Of a stretch of DNA of 64,000 nucleotides, positions 17,592 to 33,637 are shown one piece after another (the stretch's first letter is position 1; each line of letters starts with the position of its first letter). The DNA is from Ruegeria atlantica (lineage in GTDB: Bacteria > Pseudomonadota > Alphaproteobacteria > Rhodobacterales > Rhodobacteraceae). The stretch covers positions 1 through 64,000 of the forward strand of contig WQBJ01000015.1 in assembly GCA_013032095.1 (NCBI GenBank), in the 5' to 3' direction. The translations under genes and the position numbers were made by a program. The notes under the pieces were generated by a model. That model made no database searches, had not been told where the DNA came from, and saw only the letters and a list, made by a program, of their open reading frames with translations.

Positions 17592-17633
17592 TTACAACTC
17601 CATTGCTGGATTGCGTTCTATTGAGGTTTTCAG

Positions 17634-17662: not shown

Positions 17663-17676
17663 CAGATAGGTTTACG

Positions 17677-18573
17677 ATGCCGTCACCTGAGAGTTTGCAG
17701 GCCTTTGTACTGGCCGCAGAGCTTGGCTCCTTCTCTGCGGCCGCGCGGAAGATGAAGAAAGCCCAGTCTGCGGTATCAACTGCAATCGCTAACCTTGAAA
17801 TCGATACGAACCTTCAGCTTTTTGACAGAAGCAGCAGGTCCCCGACGCTCACACAGGCGGGCCAATCGCTATTACCGTATGCCAGGGGCATTTTGCTCGG
17901 AAACCAGGAATTTCACGCCAAGGCGACATCGATGTCGGAAGGGGTAGAGGACAAAGTGAGCATTGCAGTCGAACAGGGGGTCAACCTGATACCGGTTTTG
18001 GATGTGTTGAGCGATTTTTCTAATGAGTTTCCTGACGTCTCGCTTGAAATCCTAACCACCGGCCCAAACGATACGGCGACCTTGCTCAAAGAGGGGCGTG
18101 CAACACTCGGCCTCATGACCGAACAGGAAAGTTACCCGACCGGCTTTCAGTTTCGGGGGGTCGGATATTCAGCCTTGGTGCCGGTCTGTGGTACATCTCA
18201 TCCGCTGGCCAAACTGGATCGTGTCGCTCACCGAGACCTCAGGCAACATCGGCAATTGGTACTCAGGAGCCGTTCAAGTGAAGTCCCTGGCCTGGTCGGC
18301 GAAATCAAGAGCGCATCGATTTGGTATGCGGAGAACCCCCACATGATCCTTGAACTGGTTTTGCGTGGTTTAGGATGGGCCGAATTACCATTGCCAGTTG
18401 TCAGAGCATTGCTGAGATCGAGCAAGCTGGCTCAAATGGAATACACCTTCCAGCAAAGCGATGCACTGGAAGGTATCGACCTTGTCTGGACAGAGCAACA
18501 CGTTCTGGGCAAAGCAGGTCAGTGGGTGCAGAGCCAACTCATTAAAATTCCGCAAAACGTTTGGAAGGATTGA
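17677..18573 (+). CDS. LysR-family transcriptional regulator
   Basis: 298 residues. HTH in ESLQAFVLAAELGSFSAAAR and QSAVSTAIANLEIDTNLQLF, then a periplasmic-binding-like sensor domain (about residues 90-290). Divergent from the PACE exporter gene, which it probably controls in response to the exporter's substrate. Confidence 0.9.
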   Translation: MPSPESLQAFVLAAELGSFSAAARKMKKAQSAVSTAIANLEIDTNLQLFDRSSRSPTLTQAGQSLLPYARGILLGNQEFHAKATSMSEGVEDKVSIAVEQGVNLIPVLDVLSDFSNEFPDVSLEILTTGPNDTATLLKEGRATLGLMTEQESYPTGFQFRGVGYSALVPVCGTSHPLAKLDRVAHRDLRQHRQLVLRSRSSEVPGLVGEIKSASIWYAENPHMILELVLRGLGWAELPLPVVRALLRSSKLAQMEYTFQQSDALEGIDLVWTEQHVLGKAGQWVQSQLIKIPQNVWKD

Positions 18574-18725
18574 GCTCAAAGCGTGTCTCGCAATAATTCG
18601 ACCATTGAGGGCAAAGTTGCGCATCTGGGAAACTGTGAGACTTGGGTCTGAAGGTCTGCTTTGGTCGTTCACTGCCGGTGCGAATTAGACGGCCAACTGA
18701 ATTCACATTACCCATCAATCGGCAC

Positions 18726-19229
18726 TCAAGCTTCAATCTTACTCATCGCGGAAAAAAGCGCACCGCGTATGTTTTCAATCTCGTCCGGACGGCGAAACTC
18801 TTCAAAATGTAGCTTGTCGTGTTCCATCACCTCTTTCATTGCACGCTCGATGAGGTGTTCGCCTGTTTCGGTCAGTTGCACAATTTTACTGCGACCATCG
18901 CTTGGGTTGGGGGCCCGTGTAACCAAACTTCTGCGCTCAAGGTCGACCAAAATATTGGCTGCACCACCTGTAGTCAAGAGCGCAGATTTACAGAGGTCTG
19001 ATGGCGTAAGCTGGCGGGGTTTCGGCTGCGCTCGAAGCGCGACCAAGACTTCGAAGGCTGCGTGAGTGAGATCGAAACTGGCCAAGGCTTCCTCCGTGCG
19101 CGCCCGGATCAGTTCGTTCAAACGGATCACCGAGAAAATAATGTCGGTTTCCGGCGAGGCTGCTTCAGGCCAGTTGAGCTTGATCCGCTTGAGAAGTGAT
19201 CGAATTGGAACCTGGTCGGCCATGAGCAT
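18726..19229 (-). CDS. MarR-family transcriptional regulator
   Basis: 167 residues; ATG 19223 is an alternative start. The winged HTH lies at about residues 60-130: LTHAAFEVLVALRAQP, LTPSDLCKSALLTTGGAANI, then the wing LVTRAPNPSDGRSKIVQLTE. Divergent from the adenine deaminase gene, with a set of palindromes between them, so it likely represses that gene and itself. Ligand could be a purine, as for PecS/HucR relatives, but this is inference. Confidence 0.88.
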   Translation of the reverse strand: MLMADQVPIRSLLKRIKLNWPEAASPETDIIFSVIRLNELIRARTEEALASFDLTHAAFEVLVALRAQPKPRQLTPSDLCKSALLTTGGAANILVDLERRSLVTRAPNPSDGRSKIVQLTETGEHLIERAMKEVMEHDKLHFEEFRRPDEIENIRGALFSAMSKIEA

Positions 19230-19235
19230 CCCCTT

Positions 19236-19255
19236 ACTACGCTTTCAAACGTAGT
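19236..19255. promoter_or_regulatory. Inverted repeat ACTACG-N8-CGTAGT
   Basis: Perfect 6-bp arms in the marR/deaminase divergent region, next to the marR start. Confidence 0.4.
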
Positions 19256-19257
19256 GT

Positions 19258-19301
19258 ACCTTTACAGAAAGGTAAATGATCATTATTCCTTTCTGGAAAG
19301 G
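19258..19301. promoter_or_regulatory. Two MarR-type palindromes
   Basis: ACCTTTACAGAAAGGT (19258-19273) and CCTTTCTGGAAAGG (19288-19301) share the half-site CCTTT / AAAGG and lie three helical turns apart, between divergent starts. A tandem operator of this kind suits a dimeric MarR protein. Confidence 0.6.
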
Positions 19302-19320
19302 TAAATAGGGACCGTGTGAG

Positions 19321-20376
19321 ATGTGCAAACTAACGGATGCTTTGATCGATAATCTGCCCAAGGCAGAACTCCATGTTCATATTGAAGGGACCTTAGAGCC
19401 CGAGATGATGCTGAAGCTTGCCCGTCGAAATAAAGTATCGCTGCCCTATGAGACGGTCGAGGACGTGCGAAGAGCTTACGAGTTCGACTGCCTCCAAGAT
19501 TTTCTGGATCTGTACTACCTCGGAATGTCCGTGCTTGTAACTGAGCAGGACTTCTTTGACCTGACCTGGGCTTACCTGAACCGCGTGCATGCAGACCGTC
19601 TGACCCATGTTGAACTGTTCTTTGACCCCCAGCCGCATATGGATAGAAACGTCGCCTTTGAAACTGTTGTCGAAGGGATCACGCGCGCGCTTGAGGCCGG
19701 GGCAAAGGAGTTAGGTATTTCGTCCAAGCTGATCATGTGCATCGTGCGCCACTTGCCGGAAGAGCATGCTTTCACCGCATTGGAATGCGCGAAGAAACAT
19801 AAAGAGCACATCCACGGTTTCGGCATGGACAGCACAGAACGTGGCATCCCTCCTGCGACTTTTGAGCGTATTTTCAAGGCGGCGCGGGAAGCGGGGTTTG
19901 TGCCCGTTGCCCATGTGGGCGAAGAAGGCACCTCTGAAAACGTCAAGGAAGCGCTCGACCTGCTCAAGATCGAGCGTGTGGATCATGGAAATCATGCTCT
20001 GGATGATCCAGCGCTGGTGTCGCGCTTGGCTCGTCAGAAAACACCGCTGACAATGTGCCCTATTTCCAACTGGCGGCTCAAAGTTATCCCGGATTTGACC
20101 AAGAGCCCGGTCAAAAAGGCATTGGATGAAGGCCTTTTGGTAACAATCAACTCGGATGACCCGTCCTATTTCGGTGGCTATATCAATGACAATTATCGCG
20201 CCGTTCAGAAGAACCTTAACCTCAGCGAAAAAGACATCATCCAATTGGCCAAGAATTCATTTGCCGGTTCGTTCTTGAGCGACTCTGAAAAACAGGCGCA
20301 GTTAGACGGAATCGACCATCAGGTTGAAACGTTGCAAAGAACCATGGGCTCATCCGGTTCATCGTCCAGACAATAG
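19321..20376 (+). CDS. Adenine deaminase (adenosine deaminase-like fold)
   Basis: 351 residues of the adenosine/adenine deaminase amidohydrolase family. Zinc ligands: HVHIEGTLEP near the N-terminus, His in VAHVGEEG, and Asp in TINSDDPSYFGGY; KIERVDHGNHAL carries the catalytic His. The FFDPQ, HLPEEHAFTALE and FGGYINDNYRA context fits the adenine deaminase branch (Aah1, Pseudomonas PA0148) better than true adenosine deaminase. Predicted reaction: adenine to hypoxanthine and ammonia. The last dozen residues (SSGSSSRQ) run into a TrmO relic, so the native C-terminus may have been replaced. Confidence 0.82.
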   Translation: MCKLTDALIDNLPKAELHVHIEGTLEPEMMLKLARRNKVSLPYETVEDVRRAYEFDCLQDFLDLYYLGMSVLVTEQDFFDLTWAYLNRVHADRLTHVELFFDPQPHMDRNVAFETVVEGITRALEAGAKELGISSKLIMCIVRHLPEEHAFTALECAKKHKEHIHGFGMDSTERGIPPATFERIFKAAREAGFVPVAHVGEEGTSENVKEALDLLKIERVDHGNHALDDPALVSRLARQKTPLTMCPISNWRLKVIPDLTKSPVKKALDEGLLVTINSDDPSYFGGYINDNYRAVQKNLNLSEKDIIQLAKNSFAGSFLSDSEKQAQLDGIDHQVETLQRTMGSSGSSSRQ

Positions 20377-20505
20377 GGCATCTCTTCGTGCCCGGCTTGA
20401 TGTCGAGCAGCTTGGTCCCGTTCAGACAATCCATGCCCCGCACCTTGATGCGCCCGTCCGTGATCGCCTCGATCTGGACGCGCGCCGCTGCAATCGGGTT
20501 GCCAC
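20376..20505 (-). pseudogene. TrmO-like tRNA methyltransferase, C-terminal fragment
   Basis: Minus-strand frame reads NPIAAARVQIEAITDGRIKV, RGMDCLNGTKLLDIKPG. This is the signature of the TsaA/TrmO family C-terminus (RGIDALDGTPLLDIKPY in typical members). Neither the N-terminal barrel nor a stop in the usual place is present. It is fused to the EamA relic upstream. Confidence 0.65.
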
Positions 20506-21078
20506 TTGCGACAGGACCCGTCCGAACGGCGCGGTGAACAGTCCTATCGCCGCCATGACCGCCCAGGTGCTTGCACTATAGGTCGATGGTGTAGCCAGGA
20601 ACACCGTAACGATGGCCAGAAAGAAACCGCCCATGCCGACACTCGCCATTCGGCTGACCGCCTGAAACCGGCGCAAAAGCACCATGTTCAGCGAGACAAA
20701 GCTGACCGCGATCAGCGCCAGTGCATCTCCAAGAAGGTTTCCTGATCCAAACGAACCGGACACGACGATGGCAATGCCGACCATCACCGCTGCGATGGCG
20801 ATCTAAGTGGCGCGCCGCGTCACCTCACCCAGGAAGACCCAACTGAGCAACGCAGCCAAGGCGGGGGATGTGCTGAGGATTACGATGGCATTGGCGACCG
20901 AGGTGTTCTTTAGGCTGAAGATCAAAGTAGTCGCGCTTCCCAGCATAAAGAGGCCTGAAACGATGACGGGCCAACCGCTTGCCCTAAGTGTTCCGATCAG
21001 TCCCTTGTCCTCGCGCAGTTGAATGAAGATCGACATGGATAGGGTAGTGAAAAGGCCAAGTAAAAAAGCCGTGTCAAA
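20504..21078 (-). pseudogene. EamA-family transporter, truncated and with a nonsense codon
   Basis: The frame enters from the IS copy 3 border (21078) as TAFLLGLFTTLSMSIFIQLR, covers helices 2-4 up to LLSWVFLGEVTRRAT, meets TAG at 20806-20804, then continues IAIAAVMVGIAIVVSGSF through the second EamA half to FTAPFGRVLSQVATR, where it joins the TrmO fragment. The first helix was removed by the IS and the last two by the fusion. Dead on three counts. Confidence 0.8.
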
Positions 21079-21894
21079 GGTGCTGTCAGACAATTTCGAA
21101 CCAGTCTCAGCTAGGCTAGTATAGCTGCCATTTATGCCGCACCAAGTTCGCGCCACTCGGAGAGAGCGGCGGTGCGTGTCAGCTTGAAGGTATCTCTGCT
21201 GGTTAGCGATCTTTCCTGGTTGAAGTGGTTGTAGATGGAGGAATGGACGGAGGCGAATTTCTGTAAACTTCGCATGCGCCTGAAACGATGCATGGCGCGT
21301 TCCCGTCGTCGGAAAGGAAGGTGTGAATTCTCGACGCGGTTGTTGAGCCACCTGCCCGTTTGCTGTTTTTCGGTTGCACCAAGCTCTCTGAGAGCGGCCC
21401 TGTATGACGCGAAGCGATCCGTTACAACTTTATCCGCTGCACCGTGTCGTTTCATCAATTTCTTGAGAAATTTCAATGCTGCCTGCTTGTTTCGGCGTTT
21501 GGTGACAACGGCTTCCAGCACCTCGCCTTCGTGATCAACAGCCCGCCACAGGTAATGCCGCTTGCCATTCACCTTCACGAAAACCTCGTCCACTTGCCAC
21601 TTCCATTTAGAGAACGCGCAGCTGCTGAACTCGCTTTAGTCTGATCTCGGAGGCAAACATCGGACCGAACCTGTTCCACCAATATCAGACGGTTTCGTGG
21701 CTCAATTCAATTCCCCGTTCATGCAATAGATCTTCCATGTTTCGAAGCGGCAATGGGAACCGAACGTACAGCATTACAGCCAGACGAATAACCTCGGGAC
21801 TGGTCTTGAAGTACTTGAATGGCGATTGTGTAATCATACGCGAAGGCTACGAGAGCACCCTGCCCGCCTCAACCCAAGTTCTTCTGACAAGACC
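21079..21894 (-). mobile_element. IS6-family insertion sequence, copy 3 (816 bp)
   Basis: Left end GGTGCTGTCAGACAATTTCG at 21079, right end TTCTGACAAGACC to 21894. Two base pairs shorter than the intact copy. No target duplication. It interrupts the EamA relic on its left, and a diverged IS6-like end follows on the right (about 21905-21955). Confidence 0.9.
21132..21837 (-). pseudogene. IS6 transposase, frameshifted (copy 3)
   Basis: Starts MITQSPFKYFKTSPE at ATG 21837 and loses frame near 21612-21640, where this copy lacks two bases (GCGCAG against GCGCGCAG). The rest keeps all three DDE-region motifs (VDEVFVKVNG, VTDRFASYRAAL, NNRVENSHLPF). Confidence 0.85.
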
Positions 21895-22044
21895 TTTCTT
21901 TATTAGTGGAAGCTACGAAAGCCCCTGCCCCCATAGCCGAGTTTTTCAAACGATACCGTGTGAAGGACTTGTAAGGAGTTTGTTTCCTTGCCGGAAGCAG
22001 AAATGTTCCTGCACCTTAAAAGCAAGTTCCTTGCTATAGAGACA

Positions 22045-22974
22045 TTAACCAGATTGAGCCACTTGACTTCCGCGCAATTCGGCTAGTTCTACAGCCTTGT
22101 CTATCAAAAACATCGCTTCCATTTTAGTTGTAGCTTCCAGCGCAATTTCTTCACCCACCAGAAAACCCAGTCCGCTTCCCAATAAAACGCCGTCCGCAAT
22201 TTCAGGCCCCTGCTGCAGAAGCTGTTCCGCACTCTTTCTGTCTTGCTTGTCGAAGACAAACAGAAACACGCCATTACCCCAATAAGTTGCTACTTTGCGC
22301 CCCTCCTTAGTGGCACGAAGGAGCGCGGCACCGGCTGAGGCCATAGATTCACGAAACTCGCTCGGAGTGACAGACTTGTAGACTTGCTCCATGTCAGTCA
22401 CTTTAACAGCCACAATATTAGCAGCCGTGGAATGCATAGTGGAAACTTGGATGACGTAATTCTCAAATTCGGCTAATCCAATGCAGCCAGGCAAGCCTCC
22501 AAGGTATTGCGGATCGCATATACGAACACCCGGATAAACTTCCGAAGTCTGCCAATATTCTTCGTCTGTTTTGAGCACCTCGATTGCGGCTCTACGTTCA
22601 GCCGCCATCCTGTAAGCGTCCGAAAGTCTTTGCTTCAAATCAGAAAACTCAAAGGGCTTTGTAACGTAATCAGTGGCTCCAACTTCGAAAGCTTCGTCAA
22701 TATATTGTTTCTGTACCATGGCTGTTACCATGATAATGGGCGTATACATGTAATCCGGCAGCTTACGGATTTCCTCGCATAGTGTAATCCCGTTCATCTT
22801 TGGCATCTGCACATCCAGAAGCAAACAGTCGAAAACCTGTGAAGGATTTGATAATAATTCGAGCGCGTCTCGACCACTGCGGGCGGTAATTACATCTTTG
22901 TATCCGAATGCAGCGAGTACGCTGTTCAACAACTCCAGAATGCTAGGGTCATCGTCTACTGCTAGTATACGCAT
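22045..22974 (-). CDS. Receiver-domain protein with degenerate GGDEF-like output
   Basis: 309 residues. Residues 1-125 form a complete receiver domain: acidic pair in ILAVDDDPS, phosphoacceptor D54 in LLLDVQMPKMNG, Thr in MVTAM, Lys in YVTKPFEF. The C-terminal part (about 165-300) has no DNA-binding motif; NIVAVKVTDMEQVYKSVTPS and ATYWGNGVFLFVF lie where a GGDEF domain has its first metal strand and RYGGDEF loop, so I read it as a catalytically dead GGDEF-like fold. A paralogue lies at 24684-25814. The gene is divergent from the luxI-type gene. Likely partner: the histidine kinase at 27512-28939. Confidence 0.85.
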   Translation of the reverse strand: MRILAVDDDPSILELLNSVLAAFGYKDVITARSGRDALELLSNPSQVFDCLLLDVQMPKMNGITLCEEIRKLPDYMYTPIIMVTAMVQKQYIDEAFEVGATDYVTKPFEFSDLKQRLSDAYRMAAERRAAIEVLKTDEEYWQTSEVYPGVRICDPQYLGGLPGCIGLAEFENYVIQVSTMHSTAANIVAVKVTDMEQVYKSVTPSEFRESMASAGAALLRATKEGRKVATYWGNGVFLFVFDKQDRKSAEQLLQQGPEIADGVLLGSGLGFLVGEEIALEATTKMEAMFLIDKAVELAELRGSQVAQSG

Positions 22975-23501
22975 TTTTTTTCACCAACTTCTTGCACCGA
23001 ACCAATTGCTGGGCATTGCAGACTAAGAGCAGCGACTGGCTGGTGCGTAAAACTCTCACGACTGCACCATGATGTCGAAAAAAGGCGGCAAAACGTTGAC
23101 CCAAGACGGGCCTCGTTATGTCTGCGCATCATTTTCTCTATTTACACAATTAACTGACAGAAACCGCAGCCAGCAGCTTCAAACCAGCAAGCTATTTGAC
23201 GTGGGTCCTACTTAATATCGTACAGTGCTATGCCCTGCGTTGCGGTGCAGCCAAATAGGAGTTTGTTCGCCTGCTCATCCGTAAGGAACAAAAATTTGAA
23301 ATTAAGCCTTAACAACGGTTTGATGGAAAATTTGTGGAGCGGAGAACCCACAAGAAAGCAAAGAAGGACTGCGACGCTTAACAGGTTCCACTCTGTCTGT
23401 GGACTATTCGACCCAAGGGATGTGAATTAGACACACTTCTGCATCAAATCCCCATAGCACTTTAATAGGTTGTGGACCTACCTAAATTAATCTTGTCATA
23501 A
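22975..23501. other. 527-bp divergent promoter region, receiver gene / luxI-type gene
   Basis: No gene is supported. It is AT-rich relative to neighbours. No lux-box-like 20-bp palindrome was found by eye. Its length suggests complex regulation of the two divergent signalling genes. Confidence 0.5.
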
Positions 23502-24266
23502 GTGTGTCGAAACTATGAGCAAAGTATGGATCGACCACTCAGCTATGAGCGGACATATCAGGCAGCGGAAGCATTTCCAGACCTGAGTCCCGCCAATGAT
23601 GCTCCGGCTACGCCAAAGGCTTTGGTTCGGCGCAAATTTTTTGCGGTCAAACGCGCAGTACCTGAACCTCGACGCGCGCTTGGCGAAGTTCGCTCGACCA
23701 CAATGAGTTTTCGCAACATGCACGAACACGGCACGTTGCTCACGAAGTATCTCGAGACGCGGAAGTCCATTTTTATTGACAAATTAAAGTGGCAAGTTGG
23801 CGAAGCTGATAGGATGGAGTTCGACCAATATGATACTCCAGCATGCCAGTGGATCGTTCTTCATGAGTTTGGCGAAATTCTTGGAGGGGTACGACTCCTT
23901 CCAAGCACGGCTCAATGTGGAATATACAGTTATATGTTGCGAGATGCACAGAGAGGCATCTTAAAAGGACTACCTACTGATATTCTGTTTTTTGACGCGC
24001 CTGTAAAACAGGCTGTTTGGGAAGCAACACGTTTTTTTGTGACGGACAGCGTTTCGTCTTCGCGCAGGCTCATAGTTCAGCAGGAATTATTTCACCAAAT
24101 GACTATTTCGGCAAAACGAAGTGGTGCGTTAAGCATACTGGGTATCGTTCCCGCTGTCTGGGCACGTTGGTCTAGACGGTTAGGCGTTCACGCTTCTCCG
24201 GTCGGAGCAAAATTCTCGATAGACGGCACTGCAAGCCAATCGGTCTTATTCAATATTGACAGTTAG
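23502..24266 (+). CDS. LuxI-family acyl-homoserine-lactone synthase (orphan)
   Basis: 254 residues from GTG 23502; ATG 23526 or ATG 23703 (MSFRNMHEHG) are alternatives, and the last gives the normal LuxI N-terminus. Conserved autoinducer-synthase residues are present: R87, F91, W97, D108 and D111 (MEFDQYD), R131 (GGVRLLPS), E174 and R177 (WEATRFF). So it should make an AHL from SAM and an acyl donor. No luxR gene lies nearby; instead it is flanked by two receiver-domain paralogues, with a P450 and a sensor kinase downstream. If the early start is right, it has an unusual extension of about 67 residues rich in Pro, Ala and Arg. Confidence 0.88.
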   Translation: MCRNYEQSMDRPLSYERTYQAAEAFPDLSPANDAPATPKALVRRKFFAVKRAVPEPRRALGEVRSTTMSFRNMHEHGTLLTKYLETRKSIFIDKLKWQVGEADRMEFDQYDTPACQWIVLHEFGEILGGVRLLPSTAQCGIYSYMLRDAQRGILKGLPTDILFFDAPVKQAVWEATRFFVTDSVSSSRRLIVQQELFHQMTISAKRSGALSILGIVPAVWARWSRRLGVHASPVGAKFSIDGTASQSVLFNIDS

Positions 24267-24683
24267 ATTTCTCAACACTGGTACAGTTTGATAACTCAAA
24301 CGAATGGAGGGGTTTCACCCTTTCTTGGATTACGCCAATTTGCAAGACATGGGATCTTCAGAGGTTTTTTTGAAGATTTAGTTGCCATTCTCACAAGGCC
24401 ATGATCAGAAACTTTTCTTCATTTTATCCAGAACCTATTGTCGGAACACATTCTAAAGTTCGTCAAGTTTATCGACATAGACTACTGCCGGGTTCTATCG
24501 CTTGACTGAGGGTCCAAAGACCCGAAATCTAGTACACATAGGTTGGCGTAAAGGCGACAATTGCCAAATTAAGGTCAAGAAAATACCTCGTTTTCTATAG
24601 ATTTCCTGCTGTTTTGCCGCTGTTTCGTCTCACTCGCCACCTAATCTAAGCACGTTAGGCAGTGTAGTAACGGTTCATCAGTA
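24267..24683. other. 417-bp intergenic region
   Basis: No gene seen. Two small dyads: ATCTTCA ... TGAAGAT around a T-rich loop near 24353-24378 and GGGTCCAAAGACCC near 24509-24522. Neither has a downstream T-run, so neither is called a terminator. Confidence 0.4.
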
Positions 24684-25814
24684 ATGAGACATTCCACATT
24701 CGGCAATGATCGGTTTCAACGAAAACTTGATCTCCAAGCGCTGAGGAAAGTGAAGCTCAATGTTTTAGTTGTCGATGACGAGCCGAGTATTCTTGAACTA
24801 CTCCAGTCGGCGCTTCCTGAACTTGAAAACTGTGAAGTTTCAGTGGCGGAATCTGCTGAATCAGCTCTTATGAAAATCAAGGCGGCGGAAGCTCCGTTTG
24901 ATTGTCTGCTGCTGGACATTCAAATGCCCGGAACCAGTGGGATTGAGTTGCTTAAACAACTTCGCAATACACCGGAGTATCTGGAAACGCCAGTAATTAT
25001 GTTGACTGCAATGACGGACCAAGAGCACATTGAAAAAGCCTTTTTGGAAGGTGCGTTTGACTACATCACCAAGCCCTTTGACTTTTTGGAACTACGCAGC
25101 CGCATGAACGCAGCGCATCTTCTGATGATGGAGCGGCTTAAAGCAAAGACTTCATCGACGTCCTTAAAGAACCTTCGCGAAGAACTGGACTACAATCAAA
25201 AGTTTAATTTTGAAGATCCACTGTCAATCGAAGGGTTAGATCGGTGTTTGCGCTATGTCGAGTTCGACAATTACGTTGATCAACTTTCAAGGCGACGCCG
25301 CTTTGACTCCTGGGTTACAGCAGTCAAACTCCGGGGTGCCGGGTATCACTTCGACATAAATGATTTTGGCGCATTTCGCCGAGTGATTTCTGACCTTGGT
25401 GAATGCATAGAAAAGACGTCAAGGAGGACCGAAGGAGTATTCTCGTACCGCGGAAGTGGACTTTTCCTAATTGTAACACACGGTCGCGACCGTACGAACC
25501 GACTGCCTACCGAAGAAGCTATAAATCTGAAACTGAGGACAGTTCTAAGCAGCCGAAGTGCTTCGGCGCATCTCAAGACGGTGATAAGTGCACCTGTGTC
25601 AATGCGCTCATTCTCCAAATCCGGCGCGAATGCCGCCTTAAAACAGGCATGTAAACAAGCAAATAAAAGAGAGAGAGAGCCGGGAAAAATCGCCGTGCCG
25701 CAATCACATATGAGGTCAAATAATGCTTCCGTCCGCAAAGAAAAGTCAAATAAAAGGCTCTTTGACACTGTGCTAAGAGAACTCTACGGCGACAATACCT
25801 ACCTCGATCGATAA
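24684..25814 (+). CDS. Receiver-domain protein with degenerate GGDEF-like output (paralogue)
   Basis: 376 residues. Receiver domain about 26-145: VLVVDDEPS, phosphoacceptor D78 in LLLDIQMPGTSG, MLTAM, YITKPFDF. The C-terminal half again lacks a DNA-binding domain; WVTAVKLRGAGYHFDINDFG and FSYRGSGLFLIVTHG align with the first and catalytic strands of a GGDEF fold but without GGDEF. A basic tail (residues 320-376, rich in Lys/Arg) is extra relative to the paralogue at 22045-22974. First codons could be later (the receiver starts at residue 26). Probably a partner of the kinase at 27512. Confidence 0.85.
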   Translation: MRHSTFGNDRFQRKLDLQALRKVKLNVLVVDDEPSILELLQSALPELENCEVSVAESAESALMKIKAAEAPFDCLLLDIQMPGTSGIELLKQLRNTPEYLETPVIMLTAMTDQEHIEKAFLEGAFDYITKPFDFLELRSRMNAAHLLMMERLKAKTSSTSLKNLREELDYNQKFNFEDPLSIEGLDRCLRYVEFDNYVDQLSRRRRFDSWVTAVKLRGAGYHFDINDFGAFRRVISDLGECIEKTSRRTEGVFSYRGSGLFLIVTHGRDRTNRLPTEEAINLKLRTVLSSRSASAHLKTVISAPVSMRSFSKSGANAALKQACKQANKREREPGKIAVPQSHMRSNNASVRKEKSNKRLFDTVLRELYGDNTYLDR

Positions 25815-25875
25815 AGGATGAGATCAGGAATACCGTCGCTCTTCAGTACGCAAAGTGGATTTACGCTTCAGGTCC

Positions 25876-27237
25876 TTATGATACCCGTTCGGTTTCAAGT
25901 ATAAGCGGGCCGCTGGTGCGCATTGTAAATGTCAAAACTGGTTCTGGTAATTGCATCTTGCTCAACGAAAAATTTATACGGCGGAGTACCGAGGCCATCA
26001 AAACCATGATCTCCGTTTCTGCATATTGCGCACCTATGCAAATTCTAGGCCCATCTCCAAATGGAATATACTGCCCACGCGGCGGAGCAGCACCCAAGAA
26101 TCGTTCCAGTCGATATTGTTCCGGATCGTCCCATAATTTTTCGTTTCTGTGCAACGAATAAACAGGGAAAAACAACGCGTCTCCCTTTTCGATTTTAACA
26201 CCTTTGATTTTGACGGTTTCTGATGCATCCCTGGCAAAAAAGGCCGCAGATGGATAAAGTCGCAGAGTTTCCTTCACGTGCGCGCGCAACAACGGCATCG
26301 CCTCAAGGTCAGAAAACTCCACTAGGCCGTCAGGTCGAATGGCCTGAATTTCAGTCCGAATTCTGTTTTGAATATCAGGGTTCAACGCCAACAGATAATA
26401 CCCCCAAGCCAACGCGTTGGCCGAGGTTTCATGGCCTGCAACAACAAACGTCAGCAGATTATCGACAGTTGTCTCTTCGTCTTCGAAGTCCGTCTTCAGC
26501 GCCTCAATCATGAAATCAAGAAAGTCGCGGGGTTCGCACCGTTTTTCAGACCGACGGTGTTCTATCACCTGCCGCGCGAGATCGCGCATCTGTGTAACCG
26601 GAGCCTTGCTAGTAAGCCATTTCTTACGCGGCAACCATTTTGGCAATCCCATCAAATCGAACAGCGATAAATCTGAAATGTAGTTAAAATATGCGATCAG
26701 CCCTAAACGAATTTGCTCAGAGCTGACCTCCTCGTTTCCAGAAAAGATCACTCGAGAAATGTTCGTCAATGTCGAGGCGGGCGCAACTTGAGATATATCT
26801 ATTGAGCCTTCGTTTTCCGCGAGGGAGTCTGCGACTTCTGCACCGGTTTCAGCAAAATGTTTAGCGATTACCGGAAGGTTTCTGGCCGCGAACAAAGGAG
26901 AATACCTGCGCCTTTGCTGACGCCATTTCTCTCCCTCAGAAAGTATCAAACCGTTGCCGACTGCCGAGCCGATTATATCCTTTGTGAACTTTGCCTTAGG
27001 AAATGCGCGGCCCTGCCCAACTAGCAATTCAGTGATCATTTCCGGATCACAAATGTAGTGTATGTTCAGTGGGCCGCGAACATAGGTCTGGCGCAGAGTT
27101 TCGGCTGGTATGACTTCAAGCATATTTCGACCGGCAGACCTAGCGAATTGGATCAAAGTCACTGGTTCTTCCGCCAATCTCGCTGCCACTGGAGTGACGT
27201 CGAACTGCTTCATTTTCGTCATGCCAAACGCAGTCAA
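25876..27237 (-). CDS. Cytochrome P450
   Basis: 453 residues with all P450 landmarks: I-helix oxygen-binding AGHETSANALAW, K-helix ExxR in HVKETLRLYPSAA, the PERF-like YRLERF, and the haem-thiolate loop FGDGPRICIGAQ with its Cys. No membrane anchor, so soluble and class I-like, requiring a ferredoxin partner not found in the window. The start is TTG 27237 with AAGGA 8 bp upstream; ATG 27222 is possible. Its CYP102/CYP4-like motif spacing suggests fatty-acid or terpenoid-type substrates, a guess only. Placed between the second receiver gene and the sensor kinase. Confidence 0.9.
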   Translation of the reverse strand: MTAFGMTKMKQFDVTPVAARLAEEPVTLIQFARSAGRNMLEVIPAETLRQTYVRGPLNIHYICDPEMITELLVGQGRAFPKAKFTKDIIGSAVGNGLILSEGEKWRQQRRRYSPLFAARNLPVIAKHFAETGAEVADSLAENEGSIDISQVAPASTLTNISRVIFSGNEEVSSEQIRLGLIAYFNYISDLSLFDLMGLPKWLPRKKWLTSKAPVTQMRDLARQVIEHRRSEKRCEPRDFLDFMIEALKTDFEDEETTVDNLLTFVVAGHETSANALAWGYYLLALNPDIQNRIRTEIQAIRPDGLVEFSDLEAMPLLRAHVKETLRLYPSAAFFARDASETVKIKGVKIEKGDALFFPVYSLHRNEKLWDDPEQYRLERFLGAAPPRGQYIPFGDGPRICIGAQYAETEIMVLMASVLRRINFSLSKMQLPEPVLTFTMRTSGPLILETERVS

Positions 27238-27511
27238 ATCGCGGTTCCTTGGAGTATCTAAGCCTGCCTAAGCTTCAACTTATGTAGGGAGACGCCACAT
27301 TAGCAACGAAATCCTAGACTTTTGACGTCAATGTAGGCACTTACGCAACAATAAGGGTACCAGGGCAACATGGGTAAAGCTTCAACTAGAGCACAACAAT
27401 TTTATCGCTTGCGCCAAATTCCTTGCCAAACTGTGAACCCAATTCCGACCAACTGCGTCCTCATTTTTCAGATATCCCAGCCCTATAAGTGCGAGTAATG
27501 AAGACATTGGG

Positions 27512-28939
27512 ATGACGGCTATCGACCCCGCGCAGCTGGACCGGTCAACCGGTGAGCCGGAAAACCGGCTTCTGCAAAATATCAAGGACTACACTGCCAT
27601 GAGCTTCGCGCTTTTATGGCAGCGGCAAGCTATATTTCTTGCTACGACCATACTGACCGGTTTCTTCTTTGATCCTGTAAATGCCTTATTGTTCTACGGA
27701 GTGATATTAATTTGCGAAATACAGGACTTGATGCTCGCTAAACGCGTACCTCGCTTAAGTCCGGACCAGCATAAAGCAATTGCAATGATGGTTGCTTGGA
27801 TACTACTAAACACGATCCTCAGCTCAACTGCGATATGCCTGTATGCTGTTTCAGTTGCTCTAAAACAGCCAACTGGTGGACACTTTACCCCTTTGTTTTT
27901 CTTGTTTGCAGCGGCGTTGTTTGCGGCGATGAACAACCATCAGTTCGTCTGGGCAATGATTGTGCGCCTAGCGATGTATGGCGTTTCATTTATGGTAATA
28001 GTTGTGAAGGATATCTGGGTCGAACGTCCTGAGCTTTCGTCTGATCTTTGGCTACAGTTTTTCACAGTCATTTTTGTAATGTACTTCTTAATCGACTGTT
28101 CCCTGGTATTTCTGAAACTGTACCGCAAAAATTTGGCGCAACTTGAAAAGCTCAAAGAAGAGCATGAAAGAACAAGGGCCGCTTACATTGCCAAGTCTCA
28201 ATTCATATCCACAGTTAGTCATGAACTGCGCACTCCTCTAACCTCAATTAAGGGATCTTTAGATCTGCTCAACACCGGTGCACTGGGTGAAATTCCGGAA
28301 CCGATGCAAAATCTCGTGCTCTTGGCGAGCAAGAACAGTGAACGTCTCGCTTCCCTGATTAACGACGTACTCGACATTCAAAAAATGGAAGCTGGCGAAA
28401 TGAACTACCGTGAGCGAGCAATTGATGTGCATGAGTTGGTTCGAGAAGCTATTTCATGCAACTTAGGATATGTTAGCGCTCATTGTGTGGAAATCTCGGA
28501 AGACATCCGCGGCAGCGGCAAAGTGTATGTACGAGGGGATGCATTGCGACTTCTTCAAGTCTTAGCGAACATGATATCCAACGCAGCCAAATTTTCCCGC
28601 AAAGGTGGAGAAATCACCGTCGGTTGCGATAGCATCGGAAAGAACGTGCGTATATTCGTAAAAGACCAAGGTATCGGTATTCCAAAAGGTTCCCGGGAAA
28701 AAGTTTTTGAACGATTTTCGCAAATTGATTCTTCTGACGAGCGTCACGTGGGAGGTACTGGCCTCGGAATGCATATCTCCAAGGAAATTGTCGAACATTT
28801 TGGTGGAATTATTGACTATCAAAGTGTTTTCGGCAAAGGCACTGAGTTTTTCATTGAACTACCCAAAATGGAAGGCGAGACGACTGAAACCATCAATCAA
28901 CGGCAAACCTTAAATACTGATATCGCATCTTCGCGGTAG
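27512..28939 (+). CDS. Membrane sensor histidine kinase
   Basis: 475 residues. Five to six hydrophobic helices between residues 40 and 205 form a membrane sensor with little periplasmic part, followed by a coiled linker (residues 205-235; no HAMP or PAS domain). H-box SQFISTVSHELRTPL with H247, N-box NMISNAAKFS, G1 DQGIGIP, F-box VFERFSQ and G2 GGTGLGMHIS are all intact. The membrane-embedded sensor could detect a hydrophobic signal such as a long-chain AHL; that is inference from its neighbours. Expected to phosphorylate the two receiver proteins at 22045 and 24684. Confidence 0.9.
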   Translation: MTAIDPAQLDRSTGEPENRLLQNIKDYTAMSFALLWQRQAIFLATTILTGFFFDPVNALLFYGVILICEIQDLMLAKRVPRLSPDQHKAIAMMVAWILLNTILSSTAICLYAVSVALKQPTGGHFTPLFFLFAAALFAAMNNHQFVWAMIVRLAMYGVSFMVIVVKDIWVERPELSSDLWLQFFTVIFVMYFLIDCSLVFLKLYRKNLAQLEKLKEEHERTRAAYIAKSQFISTVSHELRTPLTSIKGSLDLLNTGALGEIPEPMQNLVLLASKNSERLASLINDVLDIQKMEAGEMNYRERAIDVHELVREAISCNLGYVSAHCVEISEDIRGSGKVYVRGDALRLLQVLANMISNAAKFSRKGGEITVGCDSIGKNVRIFVKDQGIGIPKGSREKVFERFSQIDSSDERHVGGTGLGMHISKEIVEHFGGIIDYQSVFGKGTEFFIELPKMEGETTETINQRQTLNTDIASSR

Positions 28940-28976
28940 CTTCCGGCAGACCACAAGACTGTGTTGCTCCCAAACG

Positions 28977-29095
28977 AGCGCTGTCAGACAAATTCGAACC
29001 AGCCGCAACTAGGGCAGTAGGTTTGTCTTTTGTGAATCACCTAGTTCGTGTCCTTCGGCAAGAACGGCGCACCGTGTGAACTTGAAACCACTACG
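28977..29095 (-). mobile_element. Relic of an IS6-family left end
   Basis: GCGCTGTCAGACAAATTCG near 28978 matches the left end of the five IS copies; the following 100 bp translate on the minus strand to FKFTRCAVLAEGHELG, matching FKLTRTAALAEWRELG at the transposase C-terminus. It is more diverged than the five copies and lacks the rest of the element. It truncates a sulfotransferase relic. Confidence 0.75.
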
Positions 29096-29470
29096 TATTT
29101 CACGTCTTTGCCTGATCCGACGGACTGGAAGGGCATAGCGGGAGGCGGGGAGTGCGTCTTGAATGCTCGGCGATTGTTCGTGGGCATCGCTGCCACACGG
29201 TCTACGACGTCCTGATGCGGCTGGCCTAGATAACCTAAAAATTCAGCCCAAAGTACTTCCTCATAAACATCACGGAAATCAGCGTTCTTGCCGCCATCAA
29301 TTGATAAACAATATTCGTTGTCCAAGTCGTGCCGATTTTGAAGGGAACGGAAATGACAACGTCGCCATCACGTCATTCTATTTTTTTGAAATTCAGGCCG
29401 AATCCACGGCGGCCCTGCCAGAGGGGCGTTTCATTGCGCAGTATCGCCCATTTTATCGTCCGTCCACTTG
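29086..29470 (-). pseudogene. Sulfotransferase-family gene, decayed
   Basis: In two minus-strand frames one finds DGDVVISVPFKIGTTWTTNI (the PAPS-binding 5'-phosphosulfate loop KxGTTW) and then, after a frameshift near 29300, GKNADFRDVYEEVLWAEFLG, RRAFKTHSPPPAMPF and DVKYVVV, which is the Sulfotransfer_1 order. A TGA replaces a codon in NFKKIE-RDGD. The C-terminal half was lost at the IS6 relic. Not functional. Confidence 0.7.
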
Positions 29471-30098
29471 CTTTCATCTGAAATACGACGGCGATAGAGT
29501 CTTTTTTACCGTACCGACCTAGCTAAGCCGTTATCGTTTTTTGACATGGTTATTACCCACAGTCACGAGTAACCTGATCAAGGATTTGAGTATCATGTGT
29601 TGCAGAAGGACTCAGATTTGAGCACAGTGCGGGCGTTCGCCGAAGTATAGTGATTGCACTATGCCCACGGAGAAAAGAAACATATTAGTAGTTTTCTGCC
29701 GCGTCTAAAAGCGCAGGATTTCATTGTCCTTCAGAAGGTTTCCTCTAAAACAGGATCGACACATAGCTGGCCGCAGTCGCCTTATTGAGAAAAAAGATCA
29801 ATAAAAAAAGATACAACAATAATAGTGCTGCCAATATTGAGTTTATTTGCGCAGGTTTTAGGGAGCTATTCTTTTTCGGGCCAAATGTTTCGACCACGAC
29901 GTCATTTAAAAGCGGGAATAGCTCCCTTTTACTTTTACTTTGCTTAACCATAGTCAACTCGCACTAACTATCTATACTTTTCCACACCCATCATTAACCG
30001 AGCATTAATTCTCTGCTTTTCTTCGGTTTTATCAATTTTTTTGATCTCTGATGGAAACAATAATTGCCAAGTTGCTGCAGTTGTCGACAAACATACAG
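29471..30098. other. 628-bp stretch without a supported gene
   Basis: Contains a 70-codon open frame on the minus strand (29745-29957) with one hydrophobic helix (INSILAALLLLYLFLLIFFL) but no ribosome site; I leave it undecided. GGGAGCTATTC (29861-29871) and GAATAGCTCCC (29916-29926) are perfect 11-bp inverted repeats 44 bp apart inside that frame. Confidence 0.4.
29861..29926. repeat. Inverted repeat, 11-bp arms
   Basis: Perfect arms GGGAGCTATTC and GAATAGCTCCC with a 44-bp spacer; the right arm is followed by a short T-run (CCCTTTTACTTTT). Could be a structured transcript end or the ends of a small lost element. Confidence 0.5.
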
Positions 30099-30263
30099 GT
30101 GATGTCAGACAAATTTGGACCAGTCTAGGTTCCAGGCTCATTGATTTACAGACAGAATAGAACGGTAGCCGCGAGCGCGATGGCCGACAGAAAGACCTTC
30201 GGGCATCTGTCATATCGGGTTGCCACGCGCCGCCAGTCCTTTAGGTGCCCGAACATGATCTCG
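30099..30263 (-). mobile_element. IS5-family (IS427-like) transposase C-terminal remnant
   Basis: Minus-strand translation gives EIMFGHLKDWRRVATRYDRC, PKVFLSAIALAATVLFCL and a stop near 30146. The WRRVATRYDR and final hydrophobic IALAATV are classic for IS5-family transposases. The element's right end follows near 30100-30125. IS6 copy 4 cuts it at 30264. Confidence 0.8.
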
Positions 30264-31081
30264 GGTGCTGACAGACAAATTCGAACCAGTCTCAGCTAGG
30301 CCAGTATAGCTGCGCTTTATGCCGCACCAAGTTCGCGCCACTCGGCGAGAGCGGCGGTGCGTGTCAGCTTGAAGGTATCTCTGCTGGTGAGAGATCTTTC
30401 CTGGTTGAAGTGGTTGTAGACAGAGGAGTGGACGGCGGCGAATTTCTGTAAACTTCGCATGCGCCTGAAACGTTGCATCGCGCGCTCACGTCGTCGAAAC
30501 GGCAGGTGCGAGTTCTCGACTCGGTTGTTGAGCCGCCTGCCCGTTTGCTGTTTTTCGAATGCACCCAGTTCTCTGAGCGCGGTTCTGTATGAGGCGAAGC
30601 GATCCGTGACGACGGTTTCCGCTTTGCCGTGTCGCTTCATTAACTTCTTGAGGAATTTCAGTGCAGCCTGCTTGTTTCGGCGTTTGGTAACAACGACTTC
30701 CAGTACCTCGCCTTCGTGATCAACAGCCCGCCAAAGATAATGCCGCTTGCCATTCACCTTCACGAAAACCTCGTCCACGTGCCACTTCCATTTGGAGAAC
30801 GCGCGCAGCTACTGAACACGCTTCTACCTTATCTCAGCAGCAAACATCGGGCCAAACCTGTGCCACCAATATCGGACAGTTTCGTAGCTCACGTCGATGC
30901 CTCGCTCGTGCAGCAGATCTTCGACATTCCGATGCGAGAGCGGAAATCGGATGTACAGCATCACCGCAAGACGGATGATCTCGGGACTGGTTTTTAAGTA
31001 CTTGAAAGAGGCAGGTCTGGTCATGGGCAAAAGCTACGCAACCGCCCTGCCCCGCTCAAGCAAAGTTCTTCTGACAAGACC
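30264..31081 (-). mobile_element. IS6-family insertion sequence, copy 4 (818 bp)
   Basis: Left end GGTGCTGACAGACAAATTCG at 30264, right end to 31081. Full length but without flanking duplication. Inserted into the IS5 remnant on the left; on the right it stops 18 bp short of a SoxR/MerR-like palindrome. Confidence 0.9.
30317..31024 (-). pseudogene. IS6 transposase with two nonsense codons (copy 4)
   Basis: Same length as the intact copy, but codons at 30826-30824 and 30811-30809 are TAG, in the segment that reads EIRRKRVQQLRA in the intact transposase (Arg/Lys and Gln codons). DDE motifs downstream are intact. Two point mutations would be needed to revive it. Confidence 0.85.
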
Positions 31082-31095
31082 CTGTCATCAACTGC

Positions 31096-31126
31096 TTGAC
31101 CTCAACTTAAGTTGAGGAAGTAGCAA
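31096..31126 (+). promoter_or_regulatory. SoxR/MerR-like operator-promoter
   Basis: CCTCAACTTAAGTTGAGG (31100-31117) is a perfect 18-bp palindrome. It differs from the enterobacterial SoxR site (CCTCAAGTTAACTTGAGG) only in the order of two inner bases in each half. A -35 box TTGACC (31096-31101) is followed by a 19-bp spacer containing the palindrome and a weak TAGCAA -10, the elongated spacing used by MerR-type activators. It lies 57 bp upstream of the DUF1330-MFS-MBL operon. No merR-type gene is in the window. Confidence 0.65.
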
Positions 31127-31173
31127 CGCAAGAGGACGCTCGAATCATCGGGCAAAAAGAAGCGGAGATTGAA

Positions 31174-31545
31174 ATGTCAAAACAGAAGCCAGCCTACCTT
31201 GTGGCCAGTTCGTTCATGCCGGAAGGCCACGGCGCGCTTGATCCTTACGGTCAGGCCACGCACCCCATTATGGAAAAGTGGGGCGGAGAGTTGATCGTCG
31301 CAGGCGAGACCGGGCAATTCATGGATCATTTCGAGGGTGAGTGGAAAGATGATGCTCGGTTCACATTGTTCCGGTTCCCCTCGATGGAGGCACTGCAAGG
31401 CTTCTGGAATTCGGAAGAGTATCAGGCTGTCAAGCACCTCAGAACGGATGTGATCCCCCCGAATTTTACATTTGCGGTTGAGGGTTTCGACGCCGAAGAA
31501 TGGGCCGGGGAAAACCCAGATCACGCTTACGTCCAAAAAGACTAA
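31174..31545 (+). CDS. DUF1330-domain protein
   Basis: 123 residues of the dimeric ferredoxin-like DUF1330 family. Landmarks: YLVASSFMPEGHGALDPYG, KWGGELIVAGETGQFM and a FRFPSMEALQGFWNSEEYQA segment typical of the family. No enzymatic role established for the family. First gene of a likely three-gene operon with the MFS exporter (27 bp gap) and MBL-fold protein, under the MerR-like operator at 31100. Confidence 0.8.
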   Translation: MSKQKPAYLVASSFMPEGHGALDPYGQATHPIMEKWGGELIVAGETGQFMDHFEGEWKDDARFTLFRFPSMEALQGFWNSEEYQAVKHLRTDVIPPNFTFAVEGFDAEEWAGENPDHAYVQKD

Positions 31546-31572
31546 ACACCTGGTTCGAGCGCGGAGCGAATT

Positions 31573-32994
31573 ATGACCACAGCCGTTGAACACAAAACAG
31601 AAGCCGGTTGGCAGGAGATCTTGAAGGGAGAGTTCTCAGCAGCGTCTGCCGTCCTTGCGGCTGGCATCGCGCTTCACGCGGTGAACATAACCCTTTCTGC
31701 CACGATGCTGCCTTCCATCGTGGCAGATATTGGCGGGCACAGCCTCTATGCTTGGAACGCAACGCTCGCGACGCTTGCGGCGATCCTCAGTGCGGCCGTC
31801 ACCGGCAATTTGTTGAGGCGCACGGGTGTCCGTCTTGGGTTTGGGCTATCCGGGCTTATCTTTGCGACCGGCAGCCTGCTGGCCGCATTGGCGTGGACCA
31901 TGCCGGTTTTGCTGATTGGGCGGGTCATTCAGGGCGCTGGTGGCGGGATGCTGTTCACGCTTTGCTATTCGATGATCATCGTCGTCTATCCAGAACGTCT
32001 GTGGTCCCGAGCCATGGCGCTTTTGTCCGGGACGTGGGGCATCACGATGTTGTTCGGACCGGCCGTCGGTGGCGTTTTCGCCGAGCTTAGCATGTGGCGC
32101 ATGGGGTTCGGTATCATGCTGCCGATCACGGCCCTGTTTGTTGCGTTGACCCTGACGTTGCTTCCGCGCAGAAAGCAGGATCATAGACCGACTGAGCCAA
32201 TAGCGTTCGGACAATTGGCGTTACTTGCAGGGTCAGTCTTGGCGATTTCCCTCGGCAGTATTGCACCATCGATAACATGGGCTGTTGTGGCAGTGCTTGT
32301 TTCTGTCTTGCTTTTGCTGACGCTGATGCGCCGCGAACAGATCAAGACCGTGCGGCTGTTCCCTCGTGGTGCCGCCTTTCCCGGAACACCGCTTTTTCTG
32401 GCTATTTCGGTCATGGCGCTTTTGATCTTCTGTATCAATGCCGAATTCTTCATGCCGTTCTATCTGCAAAGACTGCACGGGCTCAGCCCGCTAATGGCAG
32501 GCTACGTGGCAGCGCTGGTGTCTATTGGATGGGCGGTGTCCGAAGTTTATTCCGCGCGCTTTACTGGTCGAAAGATGCACCAGGCGGTACTCGCCGGGCC
32601 AATCCTGATGATGGTTGCCTGTTTGGTGCTTGGCATGGCAACGCCGATGTTCAGGAATTCAGGATTGGCAATGACGTCATTGCTGTCACTCGGCCTGATT
32701 GTTCTGGGCGTCGGTATCGGCTCCGGTTGGCCACACCTCAACACATTCATCCTGCAATTTACGGATGAGAACGAACGGGACATGGCTGCCTCTGCCTTAT
32801 CCACGGTTCAGATGTTTGCAGTCGCGTTTGGGACCGCTGCGGCTGGCCTGGTCGGCAACTTTACAGGGTTCAATGAAGCTGGGAACCTGACGACCATAGC
32901 CAATTCCGCAGTGTGGCTGTTCGTGACTTTCGGGTTGGTCGCCGGGGTTGCAGTTCTTGCCAGCCGTGCCCTGATTGCCGGGCAGAAGGAATAA
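31573..32994 (+). CDS. MFS transporter, 14-helix (DHA2-type) drug exporter
   Basis: 473 residues, about 14 predicted helices. MFS motif A-like GNLLRRTGVRLGFGL follows helix 2; RVIQGAGGGMLFTLCYSMII is the helix-4 motif B and SGTWGITMLFGPAVGGVFAE is the antiporter motif C (GxxxGPxxGG), so it is an exporter. Sits in the middle of the operon started by the DUF1330 gene; a role in expelling a redox-active or electrophilic compound would suit the SoxR-like operator. Confidence 0.88.
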   Translation: MTTAVEHKTEAGWQEILKGEFSAASAVLAAGIALHAVNITLSATMLPSIVADIGGHSLYAWNATLATLAAILSAAVTGNLLRRTGVRLGFGLSGLIFATGSLLAALAWTMPVLLIGRVIQGAGGGMLFTLCYSMIIVVYPERLWSRAMALLSGTWGITMLFGPAVGGVFAELSMWRMGFGIMLPITALFVALTLTLLPRRKQDHRPTEPIAFGQLALLAGSVLAISLGSIAPSITWAVVAVLVSVLLLLTLMRREQIKTVRLFPRGAAFPGTPLFLAISVMALLIFCINAEFFMPFYLQRLHGLSPLMAGYVAALVSIGWAVSEVYSARFTGRKMHQAVLAGPILMMVACLVLGMATPMFRNSGLAMTSLLSLGLIVLGVGIGSGWPHLNTFILQFTDENERDMAASALSTVQMFAVAFGTAAAGLVGNFTGFNEAGNLTTIANSAVWLFVTFGLVAGVAVLASRALIAGQKE

Positions 32995-32998
32995 CAGG

Positions 32999-33637
32999 AT
33001 GGAACAATTATTCCCGGACCTTTGGCAAACACCGCTGGAACTACACTTTGGGACATTGAAGTACCACGGCTACGTTCTTCAGCATTCTGAAGGGCGAGAT
33101 ATGATCTATGTTGCCGAGGAACCGTCGACGCTGCATGCCATCAAAACATCAGGAAATGTCGATCACCTGTACCTCAGCCATAATCATGAGATTTCCGACG
33201 GGCTGGCCAAGGCGAGCTCTACGCTCGGTGCGCCTGTGGTTGGACATGCGGAAATGCAGAAGTACTTTCCGAAAGGTCTAAAGCTGGACCAATGCATTGA
33301 AACGGATGGTCGCACCAAAATCAGCGTCGGGTTGGAGGCGATTTACACGTCGGGGCATACGGATAACAACATCTGCTATAGATACGCCTCGCCGTACGGT
33401 AAGATATATCTATTTGTCGGTGATACTCTGTACCCCGATAACGACGAATGGAGGGCTTTGGTTATGGAACGCCACGGGGGGAACAGGCAGACGTTGATCA
33501 AGACGCTGGGGATTCTTAAAAATGTGCAGACGGACGTGATCATTCCCAGCGTCGCCGTAGGAAACTACCAGATAGCCGAACTGACCGAGAGCGACTGGCA
33601 TGCTGCGTTGGACGCAGCTATCTCGTCTTTGCAGTGA
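32999..33637 (+). CDS. MBL-fold hydrolase-like protein
   Basis: 212 residues from ATG 32999, AAGGA 8 bp upstream and 4 bp after the MFS stop. Metallo-beta-lactamase fold: LYLSHNHEISDGLAKASS at the usual metal-binding loop, then IYTSGHTDNNICYRY (third metal His in SGHT) and YLFVGDTLYPDNDEW (bridging Asp in GDT). The first motif reads HNHEISD instead of HxHxDH, so one ligand is displaced by two residues. Cytosolic; may detoxify the compound exported by the adjacent MFS protein. Substrate unknown. Confidence 0.8.
   Translation: MEQLFPDLWQTPLELHFGTLKYHGYVLQHSEGRDMIYVAEEPSTLHAIKTSGNVDHLYLSHNHEISDGLAKASSTLGAPVVGHAEMQKYFPKGLKLDQCIETDGRTKISVGLEAIYTSGHTDNNICYRYASPYGKIYLFVGDTLYPDNDEWRALVMERHGGNRQTLIKTLGILKNVQTDVIIPSVAVGNYQIAELTESDWHAALDAAISSLQ

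Follow-up and report, generated by a model that had tools for sequence, protein, structure and literature searches.

The stretch of Ruegeria atlantica DNA analysed here (64 kb, called the window below) belongs to contig C57 of a draft genome (6.14 Mb). Of the three luxI genes in this genome, one is located in the window within a block of five open reading frames (ORFs) that forms a putative quorum-sensing module. The positions of all five ORFs were confirmed in a check of the window. The block begins with a response regulator of 309 residues, RR1 (22045–22974, minus strand), and continues with a LuxI-type synthase of N-acyl homoserine lactones (AHLs; 23502–24266, plus strand), which comprises 254 residues when counted from the first start codon. 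These are followed by a second response regulator, RR2 (24684–25814, plus strand, 376 residues), a cytochrome P450 (25876–27237, minus strand, 453 residues), and a sensor histidine kinase, HK (27512–28939, plus strand, 475 residues). The preliminary description of this locus had listed a LuxI-type gene with all catalytic residues and no luxR neighbour, two paralogous receiver (REC) proteins with inactive-looking GGDEF outputs, and a kinase with a purely membrane-embedded sensor; each of these features is borne out by the domain searches, alignments, and models described below.

LuxI scores 53.9 bits with PF00765, against a cut-off of 24, and when aligned to two AHL synthases of known structure, 3p2f and LasI, it retains R..F, W, D..D, R, and E..R, which we take to be the catalytic residues. 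Its predicted product is an AHL. No match to luxR was found at E 1e-4 across the whole window. Both of the other luxI genes of this genome have luxR (Autoind_bind and GerE domains) directly upstream, so that the label "orphan" for the luxI of the window is controlled internally, within the same genome.

Both regulators carry a receiver domain (PF00072, E 1e-30 in RR1 and 2e-28 in RR2), and they are paralogues with 35% identity over 252 residues. Their output domains have no Pfam match. A profile of the output domain, built from 34 relatives, weakly matches 12 solved chains (best E 0.0023), 11 of which are diguanylate cyclases or cyclic di-GMP (c-di-GMP) proteins. The 15 best Foldseek matches of the RR2 model (mean predicted local distance difference test, pLDDT, of 81) are REC-GGDEF proteins, including WspR, DgcR, and PleD, with E from 4e-15 to 4e-11; the whole-chain template modelling scores are low (0.30–0.36), and the placement of the domains is therefore not fixed. 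A second look at RR2 with VIA-align gave mostly receiver domains among the matches listed and hardly probes the output domain. On the basis of the model and the profile, the output domains are predicted to have the GGDEF fold. The motif itself is replaced by GNGVF in RR1 and by GSGLF in RR2, and GG[DE]EF is found in none of the 34 members of the receiver family, RR1 and RR2 included, for which reason active diguanylate cyclases were rejected for both proteins. The phosphorylation site is well preserved, with D78, T108, and K130 present in all 34 members and the complete site in 33.

HK consists, according to Pfam, of HisKA and HATPase domains, with no PAS, HAMP, or receiver domain. Six hydrophobic helices are indicated by hydropathy, and the sixth continues directly into the kinase helix in the AlphaFold model (mean pLDDT 83). 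A profile of the membrane sensor had no match among solved structures and none in Pfam, and among the 50 Foldseek matches listed for the whole HK model, the histidine-kinase entries were aligned through the kinase part, so that the membrane region carries no assigned fold. Three residues located in helices of the membrane part, R38, D72, and R152, are identical in all 105 distinct sensors compared (119 before removal of duplicates, the sensor of a Loktanella salsilacus plasmid being among those dropped).

Ruegeria sp. HKCCA6707 (L146) has all five genes with order and strands unchanged, at identities to the window of 73% for LuxI, 67% for RR1, 60% for RR2, 86% for P450, and 79% for HK. The complete set with both receivers is found also in Thalassovita aquimarina and Alexandriicola marinus (the genome of L037), and the set with one receiver found is present in Roseibacterium sp. 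SDUM158016 and in an uncultured Roseovarius. Since all five genes occur also in L034, L035, L037, L146, and L153, a chance neighbourhood was rejected, and the outcome that the preliminary description had named as fatal to its proposal, namely that these genes never co-occur elsewhere, did not materialise. Matches to luxI were found in 150 of the 248 genomes of the family (247 genera), and a phage collection searched with luxI yielded three records, at 26–27% identity. Of the 21 luxI matches that score best outside this genome, 20 were inspected (G042 was skipped and later included as L155): the kinase lies near luxI in 17, and 14 have a degenerate-GGDEF receiver; the three with no such kinase (L049, L050, and L052) have luxR instead.

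The 248 genomes were scanned with a profile built from the membrane region of 18 kinases, E<1e-50 defining a strong locus. The scan detected 36 strong loci in 33 genomes, a count that leaves out two fragments in G212 and eight matches with E above 1e-9. The sensor was present in two of 367 genomes drawn across the class, both of which belong to the family of the window. The cluster contains luxI (within ~4 kb) at 24 of the 36 loci, a gene for a FeeM-type N-acyl amino acid synthase accompanied by a methyltransferase gene at five, and neither at seven. A receiver with a degenerate-GGDEF output lies near luxI and HK at 21 of the 24. Separately, the sensor profile gave weak matches, with E between 1e-8 and 1.5e-4, in frames of 494–1272 residues in G099, G193, G247, G238, G131, G067, G004, and G052; a distant version of the membrane domain may thus be present in other proteins.

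At the luxI loci compared, luxR and the sensor exclude each other. With the same queries, and in the stretch around each locus, luxR was found at none of the 24 sensor-linked luxI loci, whereas it lies within 2 kb of luxI at all 45 loci that lack the sensor; none of these 45 has the sensor or the receivers. The 45 comprise 40 loci chosen from the luxI matches listed off the sensor, which are a part of all such loci, and L049, L050, L052, L054, and L055, of which L054 and L055 are the other two luxI of this genome. The weakest luxR matches among them, those of L192 and of L158 (the latter located at a contig end), reach 56 bits. In a luxI tree of 69 rows, which has long branches and was used for clustering alone, the receptor label needs two changes, compared to ~20 when shuffled. 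Perception through a phosphorelay instead of LuxR, suggested in the preliminary description, is made more likely by the contrast between the loci with and without the sensor.

A second set consists of the best 80 of 207 relatives from named genomes, obtained in a scan with the 36 sensors. The first of the 80 is a FeeM-linked sensor, so the ratio of luxI to FeeM loci in this set is biased towards FeeM: 43 have luxI (within 6 kb), 28 have FeeM of type A, one has FeeM of type B, and eight have neither. The two tallies overlap (for example, L152/L037, L143/L036, and L075/L056) and are not independent. In four of the 43 luxI loci (L097, L103, L105, and L106), luxI is found 4.2–4.5 kb from the sensor, there is no FeeM match, and the sensors are nearest the FeeM type; these are perhaps loci caught between synthases. 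A methyltransferase of one of two types (class I or PEMT/ICMT-like) lies within 3 kb at all 29 FeeM loci and at none of the 43 luxI loci. The order methyltransferase, FeeM, HK on one strand is kept in 27 of the 28 type-A loci, the first two genes being reversed in L084.

FeeM was detected at E<1e-30 in six of the 248 genomes, a cut that was set afterwards, at the gap between 1e-33 and 1e-10 among the matches listed. It adjoins the sensor in five of the six; the sixth, in G010, is of a different type, 19% identical, and is found in another setting, not beside a sensor. The methyltransferase of the five sensor loci is of class I type in three and PEMT/ICMT-like in two. At E 0.001, PF21926 matches in 172 of the 248 genomes, with 92 over the Pfam cut-off, the weak matches including the genome's own LuxI on contig C207; the five sensor-linked loci, Roseovarius tolerans (E 2.8e-42), and L. 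salsilacus are over the cut-off. The bearers of FeeM genes include R. tolerans DSM 11457 (L081), in which the frames of all three genes (methyltransferase, FeeM, and HK) are open, R. confluentis, R. atlanticus, Roseovarius sp. 217, three Loktanella, Pseudotabrizicola, and Maritimibacter. Five of the 12 sensor-bearing plasmids have a FeeM match no more than ~2 kb away, judged by coordinates; three plasmids were opened, one of them as the representative of the seven Sulfitobacter pontiacus-type plasmids. The plasmid of L. salsilacus carries HK, an ICMT-like methyltransferase, and FeeM, and that of Sulfitobacter faviae a methyltransferase, FeeM, and HK. A second, different methyltransferase (PF04445; L198:7796-8392) was noted after FeeM in the former plasmid.

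The sensor has been retained while the synthase beside it was exchanged. In the tree of the 105 sensors, once the loci that have no synthase are left out, the synthase label undergoes two changes, and the three type-B FeeM sensors fall inside the window's own clade of 12 rows (SH-aLRT 100); in a careful tree of 36 rows this clade comprises seven rows, supported at 100/100. The sensor tree is unrooted, and any direction of exchange would be a reading of the tree. Two positions in the membrane part differ between groups of sensors, with N141 in 57 and H143 in 55 of the 59 luxI-linked sensors, compared to Y141 in 27 and S143 in 29 of the 29 linked to type-A FeeM. The type-B FeeM sensors keep both N141 and H143 (3/3); His124, found in 59/59 sensors of the luxI type, is present in 0/3 of them.

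These FeeM loci may be related to the N-acyl alanine methyl esters (NAMEs), which are reported from R. tolerans EL-164 in the relevant passages of PMC6296433, as are related methyl esters from Roseovarius sp. D12_1.68 and Loktanella sp. F13, F14, and D3. The passages of a 2024 paper that deal with NAME synthesis state that no candidate synthase was found (PMC11580390). Carboxyl methylation of the N-acyl amino acid expected from FeeM would yield a methyl ester. The type-B methyltransferase, being PEMT/ICMT-like (with the ICMT match under the cut-off), fits carboxyl methylation. The methyltransferase and FeeM genes are, thus, candidate genes of NAME synthesis, the genes having been read in DSM 11457 and the esters measured in EL-164. 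Among the open-access papers listed in literature searches, none has a title or abstract opening that shows a FeeM-methyltransferase-kinase locus or NAME genes.

P450 has its heme loop, FGDGPRICIG, at residue 393 and matches PF00067 with E 8e-78. Orthologues with 60–86% identity occur in ten fetched loci besides the window, two of which (L037 and L152) represent one genome. Nine of the ten have luxI and HK, including L200, on an S. pontiacus plasmid, where luxI, HK, and P450 are found and the 5-kb flanks show no annotated receiver. The tenth (L111) adjoins a sensor with no luxI in reach; the other sensor of the same metagenome-assembled genome, MSM9, has luxI (L107). One stretch of L147 matches P450 over just 36 residues, and no P450 match was found among the fetched FeeM loci. 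P450 is present in three of the 20 best luxI neighbourhoods (L034, L035, and L037), in four of the 24 luxI-HK loci of the 248-genome set, window included, and in five of the 43 luxI loci of the named-genome set, and on this last count it was rejected as a core part of the module. It is best read as a putative optional tailoring enzyme of luxI-type loci.

The module is, in our estimation, probably a quorum-sensing circuit in which the six-helix kinase replaces LuxR, with N-acyl amino-acid esters as the ligands of the sensor family and with P450 as an optional component. LuxI would produce an AHL, a lipophilic signal that the kinase, lacking any periplasmic, PAS, or HAMP sensor, would read within the membrane. 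HK would then phosphorylate (or dephosphorylate) RR1 and RR2, whose outputs, keeping the GGDEF fold without the catalytic motif, would act through binding and not through c-di-GMP synthesis, and the P450 of some luxI-type loci would oxidise the acyl chain. The ligand would be the LuxI lactone in most loci of the family and, in others, an open-chain methyl ester made by FeeM and the methyltransferase. That the sensor reads N-acyl amino-acid esters is suggested because it is kept across the exchange of LuxI for FeeM and the methyltransferase, and because luxR is absent exactly where the sensor is present; its pairing with FeeM and the methyltransferase tells more of the ligand than the local genes do.

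In the LuxM/LuxN and AinS/AinR systems of Vibrio, the AHL receptor is likewise a membrane-bound histidine kinase and not LuxR. LuxN differs from HK in being a hybrid kinase with its own receiver domain, whereas HK has HisKA and HATPase only, and the synthase paired with LuxN is not of the LuxI type. A likeness, by description, exists also to kinases such as CqsS, LqsS, and PhcS, with which HK shares six helices joined straight to the kinase core and the absence of PAS and HAMP domains; a six-transmembrane quorum sensor of Vibrio is described as a six-helix membrane sensor kinase in the pertinent part of PMC4821796. The logic of Lqs, with a synthase, a membrane kinase, and a degenerate-GGDEF regulator, resembles that of the module, LqsR being compared through its published description only: the section concerned of PMC10653808 presents LqsR/PhcX as a response regulator with a GGDEF-like output and a degenerate motif. 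For PhcB/PhcS, the part of the literature that bears on it describes a methyltransferase that produces a methyl-ester signal and a kinase that senses it. The signals of CqsA/CqsS, LqsA/LqsS/LqsR, and PhcB/PhcS are hydroxyketones or fatty acid methyl esters, in contrast to the N-acyl amino acids considered here. The idea of LuxI with a kinase is not new: in 2013, Cude and Buchan (PMC3824088) described roseobacter orphan luxI genes, termed I-delta, next to histidine kinase genes and suggested that a LuxN-like phosphorelay might operate there; their Table A1 gives seven strains with topologies H, I, and J. The I-delta loci are, by their description, like the window in that an orphan luxI adjoins a kinase gene; sections 5 and 9 of that paper contain no sensor family, receiver-output analysis, or FeeM counterpart. 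The partner loci share membership of the FeeM family with known FeeM synthases, and differ in that FeeM and the methyltransferase adjoin a sensor kinase.

We also lean, if slightly, towards a broader proposal, in which the six-helix kinases would be lineage-specific general receptors of N-acyl amino-acid esters, whichever synthase makes them, and LuxI would have been exchanged with FeeM modules of two kinds. The NAMEs of Roseovarius and Loktanella would then be true quorum-sensing signals with a non-LuxR receptor, the methyltransferase-FeeM-HK operon would be a locus of both NAME synthesis and NAME sensing, and the copies with no synthase, one of them in this genome, would eavesdrop. Named genes are gained for two questions, namely what reads the signals of the orphan LuxI of roseobacters and what makes NAMEs; if the proposal is true, AHLs represent one branch within a wider language of N-acyl amino-acid esters, read by exchangeable membrane receptors.

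The main rival to the circuit with a kinase in place of LuxR is that the kinase senses some other cue, such as membrane state or another metabolite, and merely times the adjacent acyl synthase, the signal being read by a LuxR elsewhere. It is kept alive by a solo LuxR in this genome (C1:606573-607046), which adjoins no luxI and could read the AHL of the window, and by the fact that adjacency does not separate sensing of a product from control of its synthesis, being equally expected if the kinase merely controls expression of the synthase. The antibiotic activity of NAMEs, which is the role favoured in the pertinent passages of the 2024 paper (PMC11580390), points the same way. However, the presence of luxR at every examined luxI locus without the sensor and at none with it is the pattern of a receptor swap, and the sensor was kept through the exchange of LuxI for FeeM and the methyltransferase, enzymes that share a product class and not any obvious regulation; we consider this rival rather unlikely. 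Several further observations weigh, like the preceding ones, against the circuit as proposed. Neither luxI nor FeeM lies near seven of the 36 strong sensor loci, one of them on a 5-kb contig, or near eight of the 80 in the named-genome set, four of these close to contig ends; such loci, the neighbours of which are partly annotated, may hold a third type of synthase. Among the seven is the second sensor of this same genome (L069:9094-10461; C237, about 13132-13728). A degenerate-GGDEF receiver lies within 6 kb in just seven of the 28 FeeM-type loci, residues 141, 143, and 124 follow phylogeny with no clean match to the synthase and are at most a prediction, and NAMEs are reported to be inactive on LuxR-type receptors in the passage devoted to this in PMC6296433. 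As a separate observation, the second sensor of this genome stands among further receivers and kinases and is possibly an eavesdropping copy.

Another explanation is that a general-purpose sensor serves the luxI loci and those with FeeM and the methyltransferase in unrelated ways, the products of FeeM being antibiotics or surfactants and not signals. To our knowledge, the products of FeeM-type enzymes are N-acyl amino acids with no proven signal role. The levels of NAMEs in culture exceed the inhibitory doses reported for two other organisms, according to the relevant section of PMC11580390, which also favours this explanation; yet 29 of the 36 sensor loci hold one of just two kinds of acyl-amino-acid synthase, and both types of methyltransferase accompany FeeM and, within 3 kb, never luxI in the named-genome set, which makes it quite improbable. 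It is very improbable, in turn, that P450 is the main point, providing a pathway to an oxidised AHL readable by this kinase alone: its orthologues do keep company with luxI and HK, and terminally oxidised NAMEs exist according to the part of PMC6296433 that treats them, but most luxI-HK loci have no P450.

The five-gene block has a G+C content of 45–49%, compared to 49–59% in its surroundings, and is bounded by two decayed IS6-family-like elements, both on the minus strand. The left one (21079–21894, transposase ORF 21132-21593) matches the NCBIfam model transpos_IS6 with E 1.5e-34, under the cut-off, covering positions 72–201 of 202; the right one (30264–31081, transposase ORF 30317-30778) is a direct repeat of it, at 92% and 76% identity, and the distance between the two is 9.19 kb. 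Because a block of low G+C is flanked by directly repeated decayed elements, it probably arrived as an island. Among the NCBIfam matches listed for the five proteins, none is over the cut-off, and Rfam gave zero matches in window 17000-34000. Partial copies of the end sequence of the insertion element are also present at 28971-29086 and 30092-30123, on the right side of the island, and two stretches of the BTP family of chlorhexidine efflux transporters (PF05232) are located at 17151-17591.

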